From contig JAKITQ010000032.1 in assembly GCA_021647985.1 (NCBI GenBank), positions 1-35,905 of the forward strand: a stretch of 35,905 bases of DNA, read 5' to 3'. Positions 20,352 through 30,941 of the stretch are shown here, piece after piece. The notes beneath the pieces are model-generated. The model was not told where the DNA came from, did not search any database, and saw only the letters and a program-made list of their open reading frames with translations. Position numbers and translations under genes: made by a program. Within the stretch, counting starts at the first letter, position 1. Each line of letters begins with the position of its first letter. Source of the DNA: Flavobacteriaceae bacterium. GTDB taxonomy: Bacteria > Bacteroidota > Bacteroidia > Flavobacteriales > Flavobacteriaceae.

Positions 20352-21197
20352 ATGATTAAAAAGATTATCACCGTAGTTGTTCTAACAGTATTGCTAACTT
20401 CTTGTGTTTCGAAAAAGAAATATGTTGCCCTAGAGCAAGATTTAACAGATACTAAGGGAGAATTGCAAAAAACCACCATTGAAAAAGAAAATTTAGAAGC
20501 CAAATTTACCAATATTGAAAAAAGAGTAGAAGTTTATAATGCAAAAATAAACTCTTTACAAGATGAAAATAATTCACAAATGGTTTTTGTTGGTGATAAT
20601 GTTACCGTTTTATCAAAAAACATGAGAGATAATTTGAATGTAACACTTTCTAAAATGTCACAAGAAGAAGTAGCAGGAGCGAATACTTTAAAAGATTCTA
20701 TCAATTTAGCTATTTCTTATAAATTGAAAAAAGCAATAGTTAATAATGATTTAGACCAGGAAATTGATGTTAATATTGACAAAACAGTGGTAATGATTTC
20801 TGTAGCGGATAGCTTATTATTTAGATCAGGAAGTTTTAGAGTAAATAAAAAAGCTTACTCGTTTTTAGAACAATTGGCTAATGTTATCAAATCTGAACCA
20901 AGTATGGATGTTATGGTTGAAGGCCACACTGATTCTCGAAGTATTCATACAAACGGTATTGAAGACAACTGGGAATTGAGTGTTAAAAGATCAACTGCGA
21001 TTGTAAGATTATTACAAAACAAGTATGAAATTGATCCTTCAAGATTGATACCAGCTGGTAGAAGTAGTTATGTACCATTAACCGATAACGAATCTAAAGA
21101 AAGTAGAGCTAGAAACAGACGTACCAATATTATTATATTACCAAATTTAAATAAGTTCTTTGCGCTATTGGCAGATGAAGAAATGGTAACCAATTAA
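20352..21197 (+). CDS. OmpA-family peptidoglycan-binding lipoprotein
   Basis: A 281-residue lipoprotein. The signal MIKKIITVVVLTVLLTSC places the lipid-modified Cys at residue 18. Residues about 24-65 are a heptad-rich coiled coil (KYVALEQDLTDTKGELQ...). A linker of about 70 residues leads to an OmpA-like domain (about 155-275). That domain shows LLFRSGSFRVNKKAYSFLEQL, the NxHTDxR-like VEGHTDSRSI, the 'LSVKRSTAIVRLL' helix and 'SRARNRRTNIIIL', whose Arg and Asp residues bind the diaminopimelate of peptidoglycan. It probably tethers the outer membrane to the cell wall. It is convergent with ftsZ; a strong bidirectional hairpin lies between them. Confidence 0.92.
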   Translation: MIKKIITVVVLTVLLTSCVSKKKYVALEQDLTDTKGELQKTTIEKENLEAKFTNIEKRVEVYNAKINSLQDENNSQMVFVGDNVTVLSKNMRDNLNVTLSKMSQEEVAGANTLKDSINLAISYKLKKAIVNNDLDQEIDVNIDKTVVMISVADSLLFRSGSFRVNKKAYSFLEQLANVIKSEPSMDVMVEGHTDSRSIHTNGIEDNWELSVKRSTAIVRLLQNKYEIDPSRLIPAGRSSYVPLTDNESKESRARNRRTNIIILPNLNKFFALLADEEMVTN

Positions 21198-21308: not shown

Positions 21309-23201
21309 TCAATCCACATTATCATGTAAAAATGAGTTATTTGAGCGAAGTTGAATTTCATCATTTTCATCAACTCCTAATGTAGTTCTCGATTTATTTG
21401 TATCGGTTTCTGATGATATTATTGCTTCATTTAAATCCACACCCATTCTTTTATATGCAGGTATATTTTCAATTTCATCAATATTTTGATTCATTTTATT
21501 GACGAATTTATAATTGAATTCCTTCATTTTATTTCTTCTGTCATCTGCTCTACCTTTTAATTCTGAAATGGTTAAGTTCATAGGTGATGGATCATCATTG
21601 TGCAATACTTCTTGCACATTGTTTACAATGCCATCATTTTTTCTAACTTTCAATTCAAAATTCAAATTTTCATCTACTTTCTTTTCATCTTGCGATATGG
21701 TTTTCAATGTATTAATTTCTGTAGAGAACTCATCTTCCAAAGTATGACGAATCACATTTTTATCTGAGTATTCAGGTTTGATTTCTTCTAGCCCCACTAT
21801 TTCAATTTCGTTAATATCAATTCCTTCAAGAGTATTTACTTTAGAAGCTTTGTCATCTTCAAAATTTTGTATGGGTAGATCAAATGTAAAAGAAATTTGA
21901 TTCTCTTCCTCGTCTTGAACATTTACTAAAGGTTCTTGTTTTGGCGTTATGGCAGTTATTTCGAACTCCTCCTCAACAATTTCTGCTTTGGAATCAACCT
22001 CTTCATAATTTACAGTCAAATCATTTACTTCAACAGTTTCGTTAACCTTTTGTGTTTCTTCTATAAAATCATCTTCATGCAATATATGCTTGGTCACTTC
22101 CTTTTTTGGTGCTACTATTTGCTGAGAAACAGGGTTTACTTCTATTTCATGTGTAATAGTTTTTTCTTCTTCCAGTTTGTGAATAATTTTTGTTGATTCA
22201 ACAGAAGTAAGTCCACTTTGCTGCTCGGCATTAAATCCAGTGGCAACAATAGTAACTGCAATAGCATCTCCTAATGATTCATCTTCTCCAACACCCATAA
22301 TAATATCTACATTGGTCTTTGCCTCGGATTGAATATAATCATTAATCTCTCCTATTTCATCGATAGTAACTTCTGATGTACCCGATACGATTAATAACAA
22401 TACATTTTTAGATCCTTCAATTTTATTATCATTTAATAATGGTGAGTCTAAAGCTTTTGTAATTGCATTTTGGGCTCTATTTGAACCCGAAGAAGTTGCA
22501 GAACCCATAATGGCAGTTCCGCTATTGGCCAACACAGTTTTTGCATCGCGTAAATCAATATTTTGCGTATAATGGTGTGTAATTACTTCTGCAATTCCTG
22601 TTGCAGCGGTAGACAACACTTCATCTGCTTTTGAAAATCCTGCTTTAAACCCTAAATTACCATAAACTTCTCTTAATTTATTATTGTTGATAACCACCAA
22701 TGAATCAACATTCTCTCTTAATTTTTCAATACCAATTTGCGCTTGCTCATTTCGCGTTCTTCCTTCAAAGGAAAATGGTATAGTAACTATTCCAACCGTT
22801 AAAATATCTAGTTCTTTTGCAATTTTTGCAATTATTGGTGCCGCTCCCGTACCTGTACCTCCACCCATACCAACAGTGATAAACAACATTTTTGCACGAG
22901 TATTTAGCATATTTTTAATATCCTCCATACTTTCCATTGCTGATTGTTCACCTATTAATGGATTTGCTCCTGCACCTAAACCCTCTGTTAAAGTAGCACC
23001 TAATTGAATTTTTGAAGGCACCGGACTATTGTGTAAGGCTTGTGCATCTGTATTGCAAACCACAAAATCAACGCCTTTAATGCCTCTTTCAAACATATGG
23101 TTTACAGCATTGCTTCCGCCGCCACCAACGCCAATTACTTTTATTACATTAGATTGATTTTTTGGTAAATCAAAAGATATGTTGTTAAATTCTGAGCTCA
23201 T
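21309..23201 (-). CDS. ftsZ: Cell division GTPase FtsZ with long C-terminal tail
   Basis: The tubulin-like protein that forms the cytokinetic ring, 630 residues. The GTPase domain (about 15-325) includes VIGVGGGGSNAVN, the GTP-binding GGGTGTG (113-119), the NEQAQIGIEKLRE segment and the synergy-loop region VDIIMGVGEDESLGD. It is followed by about 250 residues of acidic, low-complexity linker with repeated 'EEITAI', 'NEIEIVGLEEIKPE' and similar segments. The conserved C-terminal peptide is seen as DEIENIPAYKRMGVDLNE (about 575-592) and is followed by a further 40-residue tail. The long linker is normal for Bacteroidota FtsZ. ftsA is 41 bp upstream. It is the last gene of the dcw operon before the shared terminator. 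Confidence 0.97.
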   Translation of the reverse strand: MSSEFNNISFDLPKNQSNVIKVIGVGGGGSNAVNHMFERGIKGVDFVVCNTDAQALHNSPVPSKIQLGATLTEGLGAGANPLIGEQSAMESMEDIKNMLNTRAKMLFITVGMGGGTGTGAAPIIAKIAKELDILTVGIVTIPFSFEGRTRNEQAQIGIEKLRENVDSLVVINNNKLREVYGNLGFKAGFSKADEVLSTAATGIAEVITHHYTQNIDLRDAKTVLANSGTAIMGSATSSGSNRAQNAITKALDSPLLNDNKIEGSKNVLLLIVSGTSEVTIDEIGEINDYIQSEAKTNVDIIMGVGEDESLGDAIAVTIVATGFNAEQQSGLTSVESTKIIHKLEEEKTITHEIEVNPVSQQIVAPKKEVTKHILHEDDFIEETQKVNETVEVNDLTVNYEEVDSKAEIVEEEFEITAITPKQEPLVNVQDEEENQISFTFDLPIQNFEDDKASKVNTLEGIDINEIEIVGLEEIKPEYSDKNVIRHTLEDEFSTEINTLKTISQDEKKVDENLNFELKVRKNDGIVNNVQEVLHNDDPSPMNLTISELKGRADDRRNKMKEFNYKFVNKMNQNIDEIENIPAYKRMGVDLNEAIISSETDTNKSRTTLGVDENDEIQLRSNNSFLHDNVD

Positions 23202-24547: not shown

Positions 24548-25279
24548 TTAATATTTTGTACAAACAACTTGGTCATTGAACTTTAAATTAATCGTTTTAT
24601 AGTTCTTTAAACTTCCGTCTAATATTGTTTTTTGATAAAATGTTTTTAAATTTTGGATTTTTTTATCCATTCTTTTCAAATCACCAAAAATCACAATTTG
24701 ACTACCCGTTCTCATCTTCAATTCAAATTGATTTGTACTTTTCCCCTTAATTTGTTGTATTCCGATAATATGTTTTTTTAAAAATTCGTCGTTTTTAATT
24801 CTATTCGCCAATAAAATTATATCCTCACAATTATCCTTTTCTATAATGCTTGTTGTTAATGGAATCCTTGCTGAAAAATTATCCGATAAAGGCATCTTTT
24901 CTCCATCTTCGTCATAATAATGTGACTCTAAACCGTTTGCAACTCTTAAAACTGGTGTTCTTTGTGTAATTACAGCCCCCAATACTCCATTTATCGTTTG
25001 AAATATTTCAGCTTCCTCAATCATTTGATTGTTTTCTAAAAACTGTTCAACATTATTCAAATTTATATTTTCTTTTGATTGATTTTCAAGACCAGCCAAA
25101 TTTTGTATTAACAACTTATTAACTTTTTCATAACTAATAAAAAGGTTCTTTCCATTATTAAAAATAATATTCATGTCACTTGTTTTAATAGTGCTATTTC
25201 TATTGGAAGCAAAGCCGTATAAAAAAGCCACTAATAACAGTAACAGTAAAAATTTAATTGGTTCTAGATATTTTTTCAT
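24548..25279 (-). CDS. ftsQ: Cell division protein FtsQ/DivIB
   Basis: A 243-residue bitopic division protein. A short basic N-terminus is followed by one membrane helix (residues about 9-25, IKFLLLLLLVAFLYGFA). The periplasmic part starts with a POTRA-like region (about 35-110: NIIFNNGKNLFISYEKVNKLL... and EAEIFQTINGVLGAVITQRTPVLRV) and continues with the beta domain (YYDEDGEKMPLS, IGIQQIKGKSTNQFELKMRTG). These are recognisable features of FtsQ in Bacteroidota, which is poorly conserved in sequence. Identification relies on this layout plus position directly upstream of ftsA. It is preceded by a 78-bp gap where murC is expected. Confidence 0.9.
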   Translation of the reverse strand: MKKYLEPIKFLLLLLLVAFLYGFASNRNSTIKTSDMNIIFNNGKNLFISYEKVNKLLIQNLAGLENQSKENINLNNVEQFLENNQMIEEAEIFQTINGVLGAVITQRTPVLRVANGLESHYYDEDGEKMPLSDNFSARIPLTTSIIEKDNCEDIILLANRIKNDEFLKKHIIGIQQIKGKSTNQFELKMRTGSQIVIFGDLKRMDKKIQNLKTFYQKTILDGSLKNYKTINLKFNDQVVCTKY

Positions 25280-25357
25280 CCTTTTTAAAATTCTATTTAA
25301 AACTATGACACCCCATTAAACAACCCCCTCTTTGTTTTTATGATGATGCCATAGTTA
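25280..25357 (-). other. murG-ftsQ gap: usual site of murC, which is absent
   Basis: In the Flavobacteriia dcw clusters I know, murC lies between murG and ftsQ. Here only 78 bp separate them. On the minus strand the gap contains two very short ATG frames (MASSS-stop and MGCHSFK-stop) and a GAGGGGG run, but nothing resembling the MurC N-terminus (G-x-G-G-x-G-M-S) or its ligase motifs. It is the longest spacer in an operon whose other spacers are -17 to +41 bp. Confidence 0.7.
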
Positions 25358-26455
25358 TCAAAGTCTTTTATACATTATTTTTTCTATTTGATCTACAATA
25401 TCACTAGTCGCATTCGGCAATGCCATTTGCTTAATATTCTTACTTAAGTTCCTTTGCATTTCACTATCATTTATTAATTTCTCAAACGTTGACTCAAAAT
25501 TTTCCATATCTTTTTCTTTAATCATAATAGCCGCATCATTATGCAATACAGACATGGCATTTTTTGTTTGATGATCTTCTGCTACATTTGGTGAAGGGAT
25601 AAAAATTACAGGTTTTCCTACAATACATAATTCTGATATTGAACCTGCTCCTGCTCTACTCACAATAATATCTGCAGCAGCATACAACAAGCCCATATTT
25701 TTAATAAATGCATGTGTTTGTACATTATCACGATCGTATTTTTTATAATCTTCTATATATAATTTACCCGTTTGCCAAATTACCTGAACATCATTGTTCT
25801 CAAATACACTTAAATTTTTTTCGATAATTTGATTCACTACTCTGGCTCCCAAACTTCCACCTAAAACCACCAAGGTCTTTTTATTCTTATTTAATTTGAA
25901 ATACAAAATTGCCTCATCTCTTTTATGAGAAATATCGAGCAAATCTTGGCGAACGGGGTTACCAGTTTTAATAATCTTATCTTTAGGGAAAAAGCGACTT
26001 AAACCATCATAAGCAACACAAATTTTTTGCACTTTTTTTGCCAATAATTTATTGGTGATACCTGGATAAGAATTTTGTTCTTGAATAAGACTTGGTATCT
26101 TTTTTTTATTGGCCATATATAGGGTTGGACCAGAGGCAAATCCCCCTGTACCAATTACCACATTTGGTTTAAAATCTTTAATTATTCTTTTTGCTTTAAT
26201 CAAACTTTGCATCAATTTAAAAGGAAAAGACAAGTTTTTTAAACTTAAGCTTCTTTGAATACCTGAAATATTCAAACCTTTAATTTCGTAACCTTCCTGA
26301 GGTACTTTTTCCATTTCCATGCGATCACTTGCACCAACAAATAAAAATTTTGCCTTAGGATATCGTATTTTTAACTCATTCGCAATAGCAATTGCCGGAT
26401 AGATATGACCACCGGTACCTCCTCCACTCAACAATATGTTAACCGACTGTTTCAT
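25358..26455 (-). CDS. murG: UDP-GlcNAc transferase MurG
   Basis: Peripheral inner-membrane glycosyltransferase, 365 residues, which adds GlcNAc to lipid I to make lipid II. The N-terminal glycine-rich loop [21 protein letters not shown] (residues 8-28) and second loop [11 protein letters not shown] are clear. The C-terminal UDP-GlcNAc-binding half shows [49 protein letters not shown]. Length matches the family. Its start overlaps the ftsW 3' end by 17 bp, indicating translational coupling. Confidence 0.97.
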
Positions 26456-27661: not shown

Positions 27662-28210
27662 TTATAATTCTCTTACTGCTTGTTTGAATTGTTTCCCTTT
27701 TTCTTCATAGCTTTCATATAGGTCATAACTGGCACATGCTGGCGAAAGAAGCACAGTTTCACCAGCCTCAGATAATTTATAAGCTATTTTTACAGCCTCA
27801 TACATATCTGTAGTTTCAATCATAAAATCAACCGTGTTACCAAAGGTCTCAATGAGTCTTTGATTATTTTCACCCAAACATATTATGGCCTTTACTTTTT
27901 CATTTACTAAAGGCAGTAAACTTTCATAATCATTTCCTTTATCTACCCCTCCAACGATCCAAATAATTGCGTTTTCAACACCATCTAAGGCATAAAAAGT
28001 AGCATTGGTATTAATAGCTTTGGCATCATTGATATACTGCACTCCGTTTATTCTCAAAACATTTTCTAAACGATGCTCTTCGTTTTCAAAATCGGACATG
28101 CATTCTCTGATAGTTTCCTTTCTAACTCTCATTAAATCGGGCAATGTATGCGATGCCATAGCATTTTTTACATTGAAATTGGTTTGTAAAGCAAAAGCTG
28201 ATATACTCAT
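27662..28210 (-). CDS. murD: Truncated MurD: only the C-terminal part of UDP-MurNAc-L-alanine--D-glutamate ligase
   Basis: A 182-residue ORF in the normal murD position (27 bp after mraY, 20 bp before ftsW). Full MurD is about 440-450 residues. What remains is the last ~45 residues of the central ATPase domain (ALQTNFNVKNAMAS) and the complete C-terminal domain: HRLENVL, VQYINDAKAINTNATFYAL, VGGVDKGND, LLSPACASYDLYESYEEKG. The UDP-binding domain and the P-loop GTNGKTT are gone, so it cannot ligate D-Glu by itself. In the remnant, the usual G-x-H-N motif reads T-N-F-N, and D-S-K-A-T-N reads D-A-K-A-I-N. The latter replaces the Thr that corresponds to E. coli Thr321, a ligand contact. The equivalents of Lys319, Lys348 and Ser415 are kept. 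The ORF has a credible start and no internal stop. It is either a remnant, or a domain kept for another role, or an assembly artefact. Confidence 0.9.
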   Translation of the reverse strand: MSISAFALQTNFNVKNAMASHTLPDLMRVRKETIRECMSDFENEEHRLENVLRINGVQYINDAKAINTNATFYALDGVENAIIWIVGGVDKGNDYESLLPLVNEKVKAIICLGENNQRLIETFGNTVDFMIETTDMYEAVKIAYKLSEAGETVLLSPACASYDLYESYEEKGKQFKQAVREL

Positions 28211-28237
28211 TTGTTTTTCTTTTATATTGTTATTGTT

Positions 28238-29473
28238 TTATCTTACTTTTAATGTTAATATGGAAATAACTGCGAGTAAAATGCCAACGATCCAAAATCT
28301 TGTTACTATTTTACTTTCGTGATATCCTTTTTTTTGAAAATGATGATGTAAAGGGGACATTAAAAAAATACGCTTACCAACACCTGTACGTTTTCTGGTA
28401 TACTTAAAATAAGTTACCTGTAAAACCACAGATAAATTCTCCACTAAAAAAATGCCCGCTAAAATTGGAATAAGAAATTCTTTCCTTACTGAAATGGCTA
28501 AAACTGCTATAATTCCACCTATAGTTAAACTACCCGTATCTCCCATAAACACTTGTGCTGGAAAAGTGTTATACCATAAAAACCCAACCAAAGCACCGAC
28601 AAAGGCACTTATAAAAATGGTCATTTCCCCTGAGTTTGGTATATACATTACATTCAAATAGTCTGCAAAAATTATATTTCCAGAAACCCATGCAAACAAT
28701 GCTAATGCAAGCACAATTATTGCCGATGTACCTGCGGCCAAACCGTCAATTCCATCGGTTAAATTCGCCCCGTTCGATACCGCTGTTATGATAAATATGG
28801 TAACCAAAATAAAAACCAACCATGTATAATCTTTAGCATTATCTCCCATCCAACTAATTAGATTTACATAGTCAAATTCATTGTTCTTAATAAAGGGAAT
28901 TGTTGTTTTAGTAGATTTATGCGCTTCACTAAAATGATTAGAAGGCACGGTCAATGTTGTTGTTGTTTGAACAATTTGATCTACCGGAAGTTTTTCTTTA
29001 ACCAAAACATCTGGATTAAAATAAAGTACATAACCAACAAATATGCCTAATACAACCTGACCGATAATTTTAAATCGTCCTTTTAATCCTTCTTTATTCT
29101 TTTTAAATACTTTAATATAATCGTCAATAAACCCAATAATACCCATCCAAATTGTTGTAACAATTAAAAGAACAATGTATATATTGCCTAATTTTGCAAA
29201 AAGAAAAACAGGAATCAATGTAGATAAAATGATAATTATTCCACCCATTGTAGGAGTGCCAGCTTTTTGCTTTTGCCCTTCCAAACCCAAATCTCTTACG
29301 GTTTCACCAACCTGTAAGTTTCGCAGTTTTTCAATAATTCTTCTACCGTAAATTGTAGATAACAATAAAGAAAATGCAAATGCCAAAGCCGACCTAAATG
29401 AAATATACTGAAATAACCCTGCACCTGGAAAGCTGTAATGTTTATCAAAATATTCAAAAAGGTAGTATAACAT
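28238..29473 (-). CDS. mraY: Phospho-N-acetylmuramoyl-pentapeptide transferase MraY
   Basis: Inner-membrane enzyme of 411 residues with about ten transmembrane segments, which transfers phospho-MurNAc-pentapeptide to undecaprenyl phosphate to form lipid I. Signature motifs: AGTPTMGG, the Mg-binding [17 protein letters not shown] (D-D-x-x-K), [27 protein letters not shown], and [11 protein letters not shown] near the C-terminus. An insertion of about 50 residues ([17 protein letters not shown]... to [15 protein letters not shown]) between two membrane segments is typical of Bacteroidota MraY. It is 4 bp after murE. Confidence 0.97.
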
Positions 29474-29477
29474 CTTG

Positions 29478-30941
29478 TTATTTATTTAATTCCGTTAGTA
29501 ATCCATTTACAATCTTAAAATCATCAAAATTTGATCTTACATCTCCAATAATTTGATAAGTTTCATGCCCCTTTCCCGCAATCAAAATGATATCATTTTC
29601 ATTGGCTAATTTGCACGCTGTTTTAATGGCTTGCTTTCTATCGGTAATAGAAATTGTTTTTTTTACATTTTCAAGTGCAACGCCCTTTTCAATATCTCTA
29701 ATGATTTGATCTGGATCTTCACTTCTTGGATTATCGGATGTAAAAACCACCTGATTACTCATCAAAGAAGCTATCTGACCCATTTTTGGGCGTTTGCTCT
29801 TGTCTCTATCACCACCACAACCCACTACAGTAATTACTTGCTCATTATGCGTTCGGATGGTATTAATTGTTTCTAAAACATTTTTTAAAGCATCCGGTGT
29901 ATGCGCATAATCCACTATGGTGATGACCCCTTTTTTCGAGACTGCATGCTGAAAACGTCCATCGACATTCTCTAATTCGCTTATTATTTTTAATATTTCA
30001 AACTTCTCTAAACCCAATAATTCTGCTGTGGCATAAATTGCCAATAAATTATAGGCATTAAAACTCCCTATTAATTTTACCCACACTTCATGATTACCCA
30101 TATTCAATAAAAGCCCATTGAATTGATTTTCTAGAATTTTCACTTTATAATCAGCAACAGTTTTTAACGCATAAGACTGTTTATTTGCCAACGTATTTTG
30201 CAACATAACGGTACCGTTCTTATCGTCAATATTTACCAATGCAAAAGCTGTTTTAGGTAAATTATCAAAAAATATTTTTTTCACATCCCTATATTCTGCG
30301 AAGGATTTATGGTAATCTAAATGATCATGGCTTAGGTTTGTAAAAATTCCACCTGTAAAGTGCAAACCCGAAATTCTTTTTTGATGAATACCATGAGAAC
30401 TAACCTCCATAAAACAGTGGCCAACGCCTTGTAATACCATTTCATGTAAAACTTTGTTGATCGTTATAGAATTAGGTGTTGTATGGGTAGCTGGCTGTTC
30501 TAGCTCATCAATCATAATTTTTATGGTTGATAATAGCCCAGCCTTATATCCAGCTTTTTTAAACAGTATATACAATAAAGTAGCAATGGTGGTTTTACCA
30601 TTAGTACCAGTTACGCCTACCAATTTTAATTTTTCAGACGGGTTATCATAAAAATTAGATGCTATAATAGCCAAGGCTTCATTCGCATCTTTAACTTGTA
30701 TATGAGTTATATTATTATGAAACAGTTTTGGCAAATTTTCACAAACTATTACTGTAGCTCCATTTTCAATAGCGGTTTCTATATATTTATGACCGTCGAA
30801 AATCAGACCTTTTTGAGCAACAAACAAGGTGTTTGGTAACACTTCTCTCGAATCAAATGCCAAAGAATTCACCGTCAAATCTACAGACCCAACTACCGAT
30901 TCAACAGCTACTTTATACAATATGTCTTTTAACTTTTTCAA
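29478..30941 (-). CDS. murE: UDP-MurNAc-tripeptide ligase MurE (meso-diaminopimelate type)
   Basis: Cytosolic Mur ligase of 487 residues that adds the third amino acid to UDP-MurNAc-L-Ala-D-Glu. All three domains are present: [17 protein letters not shown] (UDP-binding, about 26-42), the P-loop GTNGKTT (112-118), TTPNS and EVSSHGI (central domain), and the C-terminal [15 protein letters not shown]. The DNPR motif (403-406) is the hallmark of ligases that take meso-diaminopimelate rather than L-lysine. The G-x-F-N-x-x-N motif of the Mur family is present (292-298). MurE is intact although its upstream partners MurD and MurC are truncated or missing here. Its start is 7 bp downstream of ftsI. 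Confidence 0.97.

Follow-up and report, generated by a model that had tools for sequence, protein, structure and literature searches.

Loss of murC and the first part of murD from the dcw cluster across the Lutimonas group, with a MurD C-terminal domain kept under selection

The dcw cluster of the Lutimonas group (Flavobacteriaceae) has lost murC and roughly the first 60% of murD, a state that is spread genus-wide, and the last third of murD is maintained as a separate small open reading frame under selection. MurC and MurD count as universal and essential targets for antibacterials, and this group is without both catalytic genes; MurE, MurF, MraY, MurG and FtsI are kept despite the loss, and likewise in a second lineage of the order. 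Among the matches listed in a search of the open-access literature by titles and opening abstracts, we found no description of MurC and MurD being lost while the MurD C-domain is retained. As two named cultured species, L. halocynthiae and L. saemankumensis, belong to the group, a start of peptidoglycan synthesis without MurC and MurD is testable in type strains, and the remnant would exemplify the conversion of a catalytic domain into a protein that is under selection but largely non-catalytic.

In the window, by which we mean the whole stretch of 35,905 nucleotides that was analysed, from an assembly of 80 contigs that is 86.6% complete, the dcw genes lie on the minus strand in the order mraZ-mraW-ftsL-ftsI-murE-mraY-[murD remnant]-ftsW-murG-ftsQ-ftsA-ftsZ. 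Names were given against the cluster of Altibacter lentus, with ftsL placed by position only. The features that matter here are the following.

24548..25279, minus strand: ftsQ, so named from its counterpart in the Altibacter lentus cluster
25280..25357, no strand: gap of 78 nt between ftsQ and murG, the site of murC in 15/15 outgroups
25358..26455, minus strand: murG, intact, 312.6 bits to TIGR01133
26439..27641, minus strand: ftsW, intact
27662..28210, minus strand: MurD remnant, an open reading frame of 182 aa corresponding to the last third of MurD
28211..28237, no strand: gap of 27 nt between mraY and the remnant, where the first ~60% of murD is missing
28238..29473, minus strand: mraY, intact
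29478..30941, minus strand: murE, intact, 628.5 bits to NF001126

The remnant is the sole minus-strand open reading frame of at least 80 aa between mraY and ftsW, and occupies the place of murD in the cluster. It aligns with positions 265–440 of the 441 in the MurD profile TIGR01087, where its score of 173.9 bits (E 5.9e-51) falls short of the curated 211.95-bit cut-off, and with residues 260–436 of E. coli MurD (chain 1e0d). Pfam finds Mur_ligase_C alone (PF02875, 47.2 bits against a gathering cut-off of 28.4), with no match to the UDP-MurNAc- and ATP-binding domains of MurD. The earlier note had described a C-terminal third of 182 codons, a loss falling inside the central domain and a product unable to act as MurD by itself, and all three descriptions hold. 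The start Met of the remnant stands opposite a Met in 24/24 full MurDs of our alignment A1; the 15 same-family outgroups do not all have a Met at that place. Elsewhere in the window, FtsZ (21309–23201) is a long protein of 630 aa whose C-terminal region is extended, as in the Altibacter lentus locus (681 aa), and directly behind ftsZ, convergent with it, lies a plus-strand gene for what appears by eye to be an OmpA-like lipoprotein (20352–21197).

The note's observation was sound at the window but too small in scope, as murC is also gone and the state extends across the genus. The murG-ftsQ spacing is 78 nt in the window, versus 1326–1382 nt in 15/15 outgroups (15 genomes from 15 other genera of the same family), all of which have MurC and a full MurD of 443–463 aa. 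From a sample of 22 Lutimonas-group genomes, the remnant is present in 20/20 with an assembled dcw cluster, among them the single-contig G011 and G017, with a stated completeness of 100% and 72%; murC was found in none of these 20, with both of its flanks assembled in 16. A MurD search at E 1e-30 returned a match in 19/22 genomes, each time to the C-terminal part alone, and none in G005, G007 and G009. Direct inspection of the G009 locus shows the remnant to be present, with 180 aa. Its length is 182 or 183 aa in 18 of the 20 genomes, and in G008 a mechanical frame of 209 aa contains the same remnant start inside it. G005 and G007 have neither a MurD nor a MurE match, and because MurE is missing as well we take their dcw cluster to be unassembled. 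Identity of the remnants to the C-terminal part of Altibacter lentus MurD is 57–66%.

Two wider surveys bear on the distribution. In an order-wide draw of 156 genomes, which held the window genome as its one member of the genus, 153 scored above the MurD cut-off, the exceptions being the window genome, G044 and G057. The short reading frame was seen in 16 of 29 related loci inspected, taken from the best 80 of 516 related loci; these 16 comprise two named isolates (L. halocynthiae CECT 8444 and L. saemankumensis DP2N0-7) and 14 MAGs. Short or divided murD frames of other kinds were also seen. In the Flavobacterium davisii 90-106 chromosome (L100, 8368–9546) the MurD frame has 327 aa from its first start, versus 443–464 aa in the other full-length loci inspected, possibly through a frameshift in the record. 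In a genome of about 0.6 Mb of family f16 (G082:C1; L353, 6479–7842), murD lies in two adjacent frames of 158 and 294 aa; at least 14 of the ~0.6 Mb genomes of this family have only the later part of murD in one open frame, and in others, such as G164, it is whole. These look by size like insect endosymbionts, with a recurrent split of murD.

G044 and G057, given as 99% and 97% complete, belong to another family of the order. Their dcw order is mraZ-mraW-ftsI-murE-mraY-ftsW-murG-ftsQ-ftsA-ftsZ (L351, which is G044:C10:22000-41900, and L352, in G057:C62; ftsL was outside the search), and neither cluster contains a murD or murC match, the sites being those of the losses in the genus. Four Mur_ligase_C proteins were found: MurE, MurF, one of FolC size and a MurC/Mpl-type ligase. 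Two lineages are therefore without murC and murD, both keeping the MurC/Mpl-type ligase, and of the two Lutimonas alone has kept the MurD C-domain, G044 and G057 having no remnant. In G044 there is also no MurI match (the MurI search did not extend to G057).

The remnant is under selection similar to that on murE and murG. Its dN/dS is 0.026–0.098 in the nine of ten pairs for which it could be computed, with dS often near 1 and one pair saturated; the corresponding ranges are 0.019–0.111 for murE and 0.031–0.068 for murG, and those of mraY (0.009–0.056) and ftsW (0.015–0.051) are somewhat lower. The pattern of conservation has, however, moved within the remnant, from the D-Glu/ATP loops toward residues 1–45. 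Because mean identity over this region is 0.73 both in the genus (20 sequences) and in the outgroups (15), the two sets can be compared fairly. For segments picked after the alignment was seen, conservation in genus versus outgroups is 0.87 versus 0.58 at remnant residues 1–13, 0.81 versus 0.98 in the DSKAT loop, 0.63 versus 0.86 in GGxDKGND and 0.56 versus 0.93 in SPACAS-YEDRG. When the site profile is shifted circularly, none of the 181 shifts gives a contrast as strong as the observed one, whether all 20 genomes or the 10 crown genomes (see below) are used, and one of 181 does so in the 10 grade genomes.

By the known fold of MurD, residues 1–45 are the end of the central domain, a segment packed there against the remainder of it. 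Their stricter keeping now that the rest of the domain is gone suggests a protein partner or self-association, and because the face toward the lost central domain is the most conserved surface, the remnant most likely binds a partner, or itself, at that face. The suggestion that the remnant may have a new role is supported, and that of relaxed selection is borne out for the ligand loops themselves, while failing for the protein overall.

The contacts made by the C-terminal domain of E. coli MurD are, by our assumption, N271, R302, D317, K319, T321, N322, K348 and S415. Each of the eight is present in 15/15 outgroup MurDs. Aligned to E. coli MurD, the equivalents of D317, N322 and N271 are kept in 20/20 remnants, R302 in 19, K319 in 15, S415 in 11, K348 in 8 and T321 in 2, so that as a set the remnants do not retain the D-Glu/ATP contacts; the changes to TNFN and DAKAIN described in the earlier note are present in the window, and its report of altered ligand sites applies to the group. 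The losses follow a division into a grade of 10 genomes, which includes the window genome, and a crown clade of 10, which includes G011, G013 and G004, as placed on a tree of 11 genomes without bootstrap support, with the others assigned by sequence resemblance. In the grade most of the ligand loops are preserved (K348 kept in 8/10, S415 in 10/10), and in the crown they are decayed (K348 in 0/10, S415 in 1/10). Given the crown losses, the remnant cannot serve as a general D-Glu-binding module, although in the grade genomes it might be one. A word search of PMC4816537 and PMC10745416 did not find the terms for the E. coli contact residues.

G011 and G013, which consist of one contig and about 10 contigs and have a stated completeness of 100%, best show which Mur ligases are left. 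Each has four Mur_ligase_M proteins (E 0.01), which by size, rank and identity are MurE, MurF, FolC and a MurC/Mpl-type ligase of ~450 aa. Mur_ligase_C above its cut-off hits the same four proteins and the remnant, five stretches in all, and the same search recovers the full ligase set in outgroups G022 and G034. The Mur_ligase_M and Mur_ligase_C searches show neither a second MurD nor a MurC in these two complete genomes, and MurD and Mur_ligase_M profile searches found no full MurD in the other genus genomes searched, contrary to the earlier expectation that another MurD must exist.

The ~450 aa ligase is called MurC/Mpl-type because it stands beside the dcw MurC in outgroups. With this protein as query (E 1e-20), it is matched in 19/22 genus genomes, not in G006, G018 and G020 (67–84% complete), and MurC appears as a second match in none; in 14/15 same-family outgroups there is a second, MurC match. 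An NCBIfam check covered MurE, MurF and the ~450 aa ligase of the window genome and the ligase of G011; the window-genome ligase scores 237.4 bits to the MurC model (cut-off 335.1) and 159.9 bits to the Mpl model TIGR01081 (curated cut-off 388.7), below the cut-off in both cases. The Mpl motif (S/T)AFFDKRSK given in PMC3060825 is not exactly present, the stretch in the window-genome ligase being SSPIDLRPK, with D, R and K kept as judged by eye. PMC3060825 reports complementation of an E. coli murC(ts) mutant by Mpl, and according to the same paper Psychrobacter Mpl accepts L-Ala at 0.7 per min and L-Ala-D-Glu at 1.4 per min, both less than 1% of its rate of 260 with the tripeptide. No burst of change is seen on the genus stem: stem/rest is 0.011 for MurE and 0.014 for the MurC/Mpl-type ligase, with 0.016–0.039 for mraY, murG, ftsW, ftsA, ftsQ and ftsI and 0.033 for the remnant. 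The remnant and the MurC/Mpl-type ligase evolve a little faster than their neighbours, since their genus/outgroup rate ratios (0.442 and 0.373) are the highest among nine proteins. At eight sites examined, the ligase has no change common to the genus and G044/G057; its sites 155, 285 and 287 co-vary with the decay of the remnant loops along one tree split, which counts once. As a separate observation, contig C75 of the window genome (L007, 958–3591) encodes a cyanophycin synthetase of 877 aa (1256.7 bits to TIGR02068), and proteins of cyanophycin-synthetase size occur in only some genus genomes.

The genus probably uses free D-Glu, as MurI lies above its cut-off in 19/22 genomes (not in the window genome, G005 and G015). 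Given the strong selection on MurE, the genus presumably still makes UDP-MurNAc-L-Ala-D-Glu or an equivalent. Searches with Mur_ligase_M and Mur_ligase_C and with the ATP-grasp profiles PF13535 and PF07478 did not find the enzyme that joins D-Glu. In G011, where the ATP-grasp searches comprised these two profiles, PF13535 matches one Ddl-sized protein of 328 aa only, which discounts a gained L-amino-acid ligase or Ddl paralogue. The same single match is found in G004 and G009, and three in G013. By PF07478 too, G011 has no extra peptide ligase, the matches beyond the Ddl-sized protein being only proteins named by their size as carboxylase, CarB and PurK. Dipeptide epimerase orthologues occur in 17/22 genus genomes, with a fragment in G020, none found in G000 and G005 and a distant paralogue only in G002 and G010; as a genus-specific replacement the epimerase is weakened by orthologues (53–64% identity) in 5/15 outgroups. 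In G011 (L197, 8233–9276 and 15531–16319) a second dipeptide epimerase lies ~7 kb from murI, beside OsmC-like and rsmI-like genes, with a similar epimerase-murI spacing in several genus genomes.

We propose, at about even odds, that the MurC/Mpl-type ligase makes the first bond to UDP-MurNAc and that selection keeps the remnant as a partner protein that is mostly non-catalytic. In the ancestor of the group, murC and the first ~60% of murD would have disappeared from the dcw cluster, and UDP-MurNAc would then be started by the MurC/Mpl-type ligase, presumably the only Mur ligase left that is likely to accept bare UDP-MurNAc, as we judge from general knowledge of the family. This ligase might add L-Ala, with D-Glu following in a separate step, or add a ready-made L-Ala-D-Glu(-mDAP) peptide, after which MurE and MurF would work as usual. 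The C-terminal third of MurD, retained as a separate small protein, may dock via its former central-domain face on the MurC/Mpl-type ligase, on another Mur enzyme or on itself, in a regulatory or scaffold role. Counting in favour are the losses, the lack of another MurC or MurD in G011 and G013, the keeping of the ligase, dN/dS, the shift in conservation, the loss of K348 and T321 from most remnants, the complementation by Mpl and the existence of Mur complexes; against are a D-Glu-joining enzyme that the searches did not find, a ligase without a stem burst and without changes common to the genus and G044/G057 at the eight sites, the low side rates of Mpl, the mostly intact ligand loops of the grade and the lack of a remnant in G044 and G057. 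A bolder version, which we hold to be quite improbable, is that one MurC/Mpl-type ligase replaced both MurC and MurD with the stand-alone MurD C-domain as a trans subunit, a D-Glu carrier at first (and still in the grade) and later a structural partner in the crown, which would make it a Mur ligase whose subunit can be exchanged.

Several other explanations deserve weighing. One is ordinary decay or missing data, with a full MurC and MurD unassembled or too diverged to be found and the remnant a dying pseudogene. Profile searches are limited and the genome set includes many incomplete MAGs, but the complete G011 and G013 have exactly four Mur_ligase_M proteins and five Mur_ligase_C stretches, in a search that is successful in the outgroups; this rules out a hidden second MurD for these two genomes, and the dN/dS of the remnant rules out a pseudogene. 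Assembly collapse, raised earlier as a possible cause, is ruled out by the remnant in 20/20 dcw loci of separate assemblies. We therefore regard this explanation as highly improbable.

Alternatively, MurD may have been split. Carrying D-Glu would then still fall to the remnant, which would dock in trans with the ATP and UDP-MurNAc domains of some other Mur ligase, preferably the MurC/Mpl-type one; that ligase would use its own C-domain to add L-Ala and the borrowed one to add D-Glu. The universal keeping of D317, N322 and N271, the near-universal R302, the frequent K319, the K348 and S415 of the grade, MurI in most genomes and the high conservation of the former central-domain face would all be expected, but the 10 crown genomes, complete ones included, have lost K348 in all 10 and S415 in nine, and T321 is left in two of 20, which makes a split MurD unlikely. 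The source of L-Ala-D-Glu or the tripeptide could instead be a ligase that has escaped recognition, or murein peptides taken up by the cell, with the remnant in an unrelated role, for example as a D-Glu or nucleotide sensor or as part of the division complex. Two genomes without MurC and MurD, one of them without MurI, the dipeptide epimerase orthologues and the decaying crown loops are consistent with such a supply. However, the epimerase is not specific to the genus, tripeptide uptake alone would not need MurE, which is strongly selected, and G011 has no additional ATP-grasp peptide ligase within the searches made, although G013 has the two further PF13535 matches; on balance we consider this possible but rather doubtful.

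Compared with MurD itself, the remnant shares the C-terminal domain fold, as judged by sequence, and the position between mraY and ftsW, but has neither the UDP-MurNAc nor the ATP domain, its D-Glu/ATP loops are decayed in half of the 20 genomes and its conservation has shifted. In the MurD2/MurL route of Xanthomonas, the departure is also at the D-Glu step, where a full-length Mur ligase adds L-Glu. The altered D-Glu step is common to both systems, whereas no full MurD-like ligase was found in the Lutimonas group. The retained ~450 aa ligase resembles Mpl (TIGR01081) in aligning over its whole length, and differs in falling under the Mpl cut-off, scoring higher to MurC and lacking the exact Mpl motif. 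A precedent for Mur enzyme complexes, and so for a Mur-derived subunit, is the binding of MurG by MurE-MurF of Bordetella pertussis, as described in PMC6420597, where, unlike the remnant, the partners are full enzymes.
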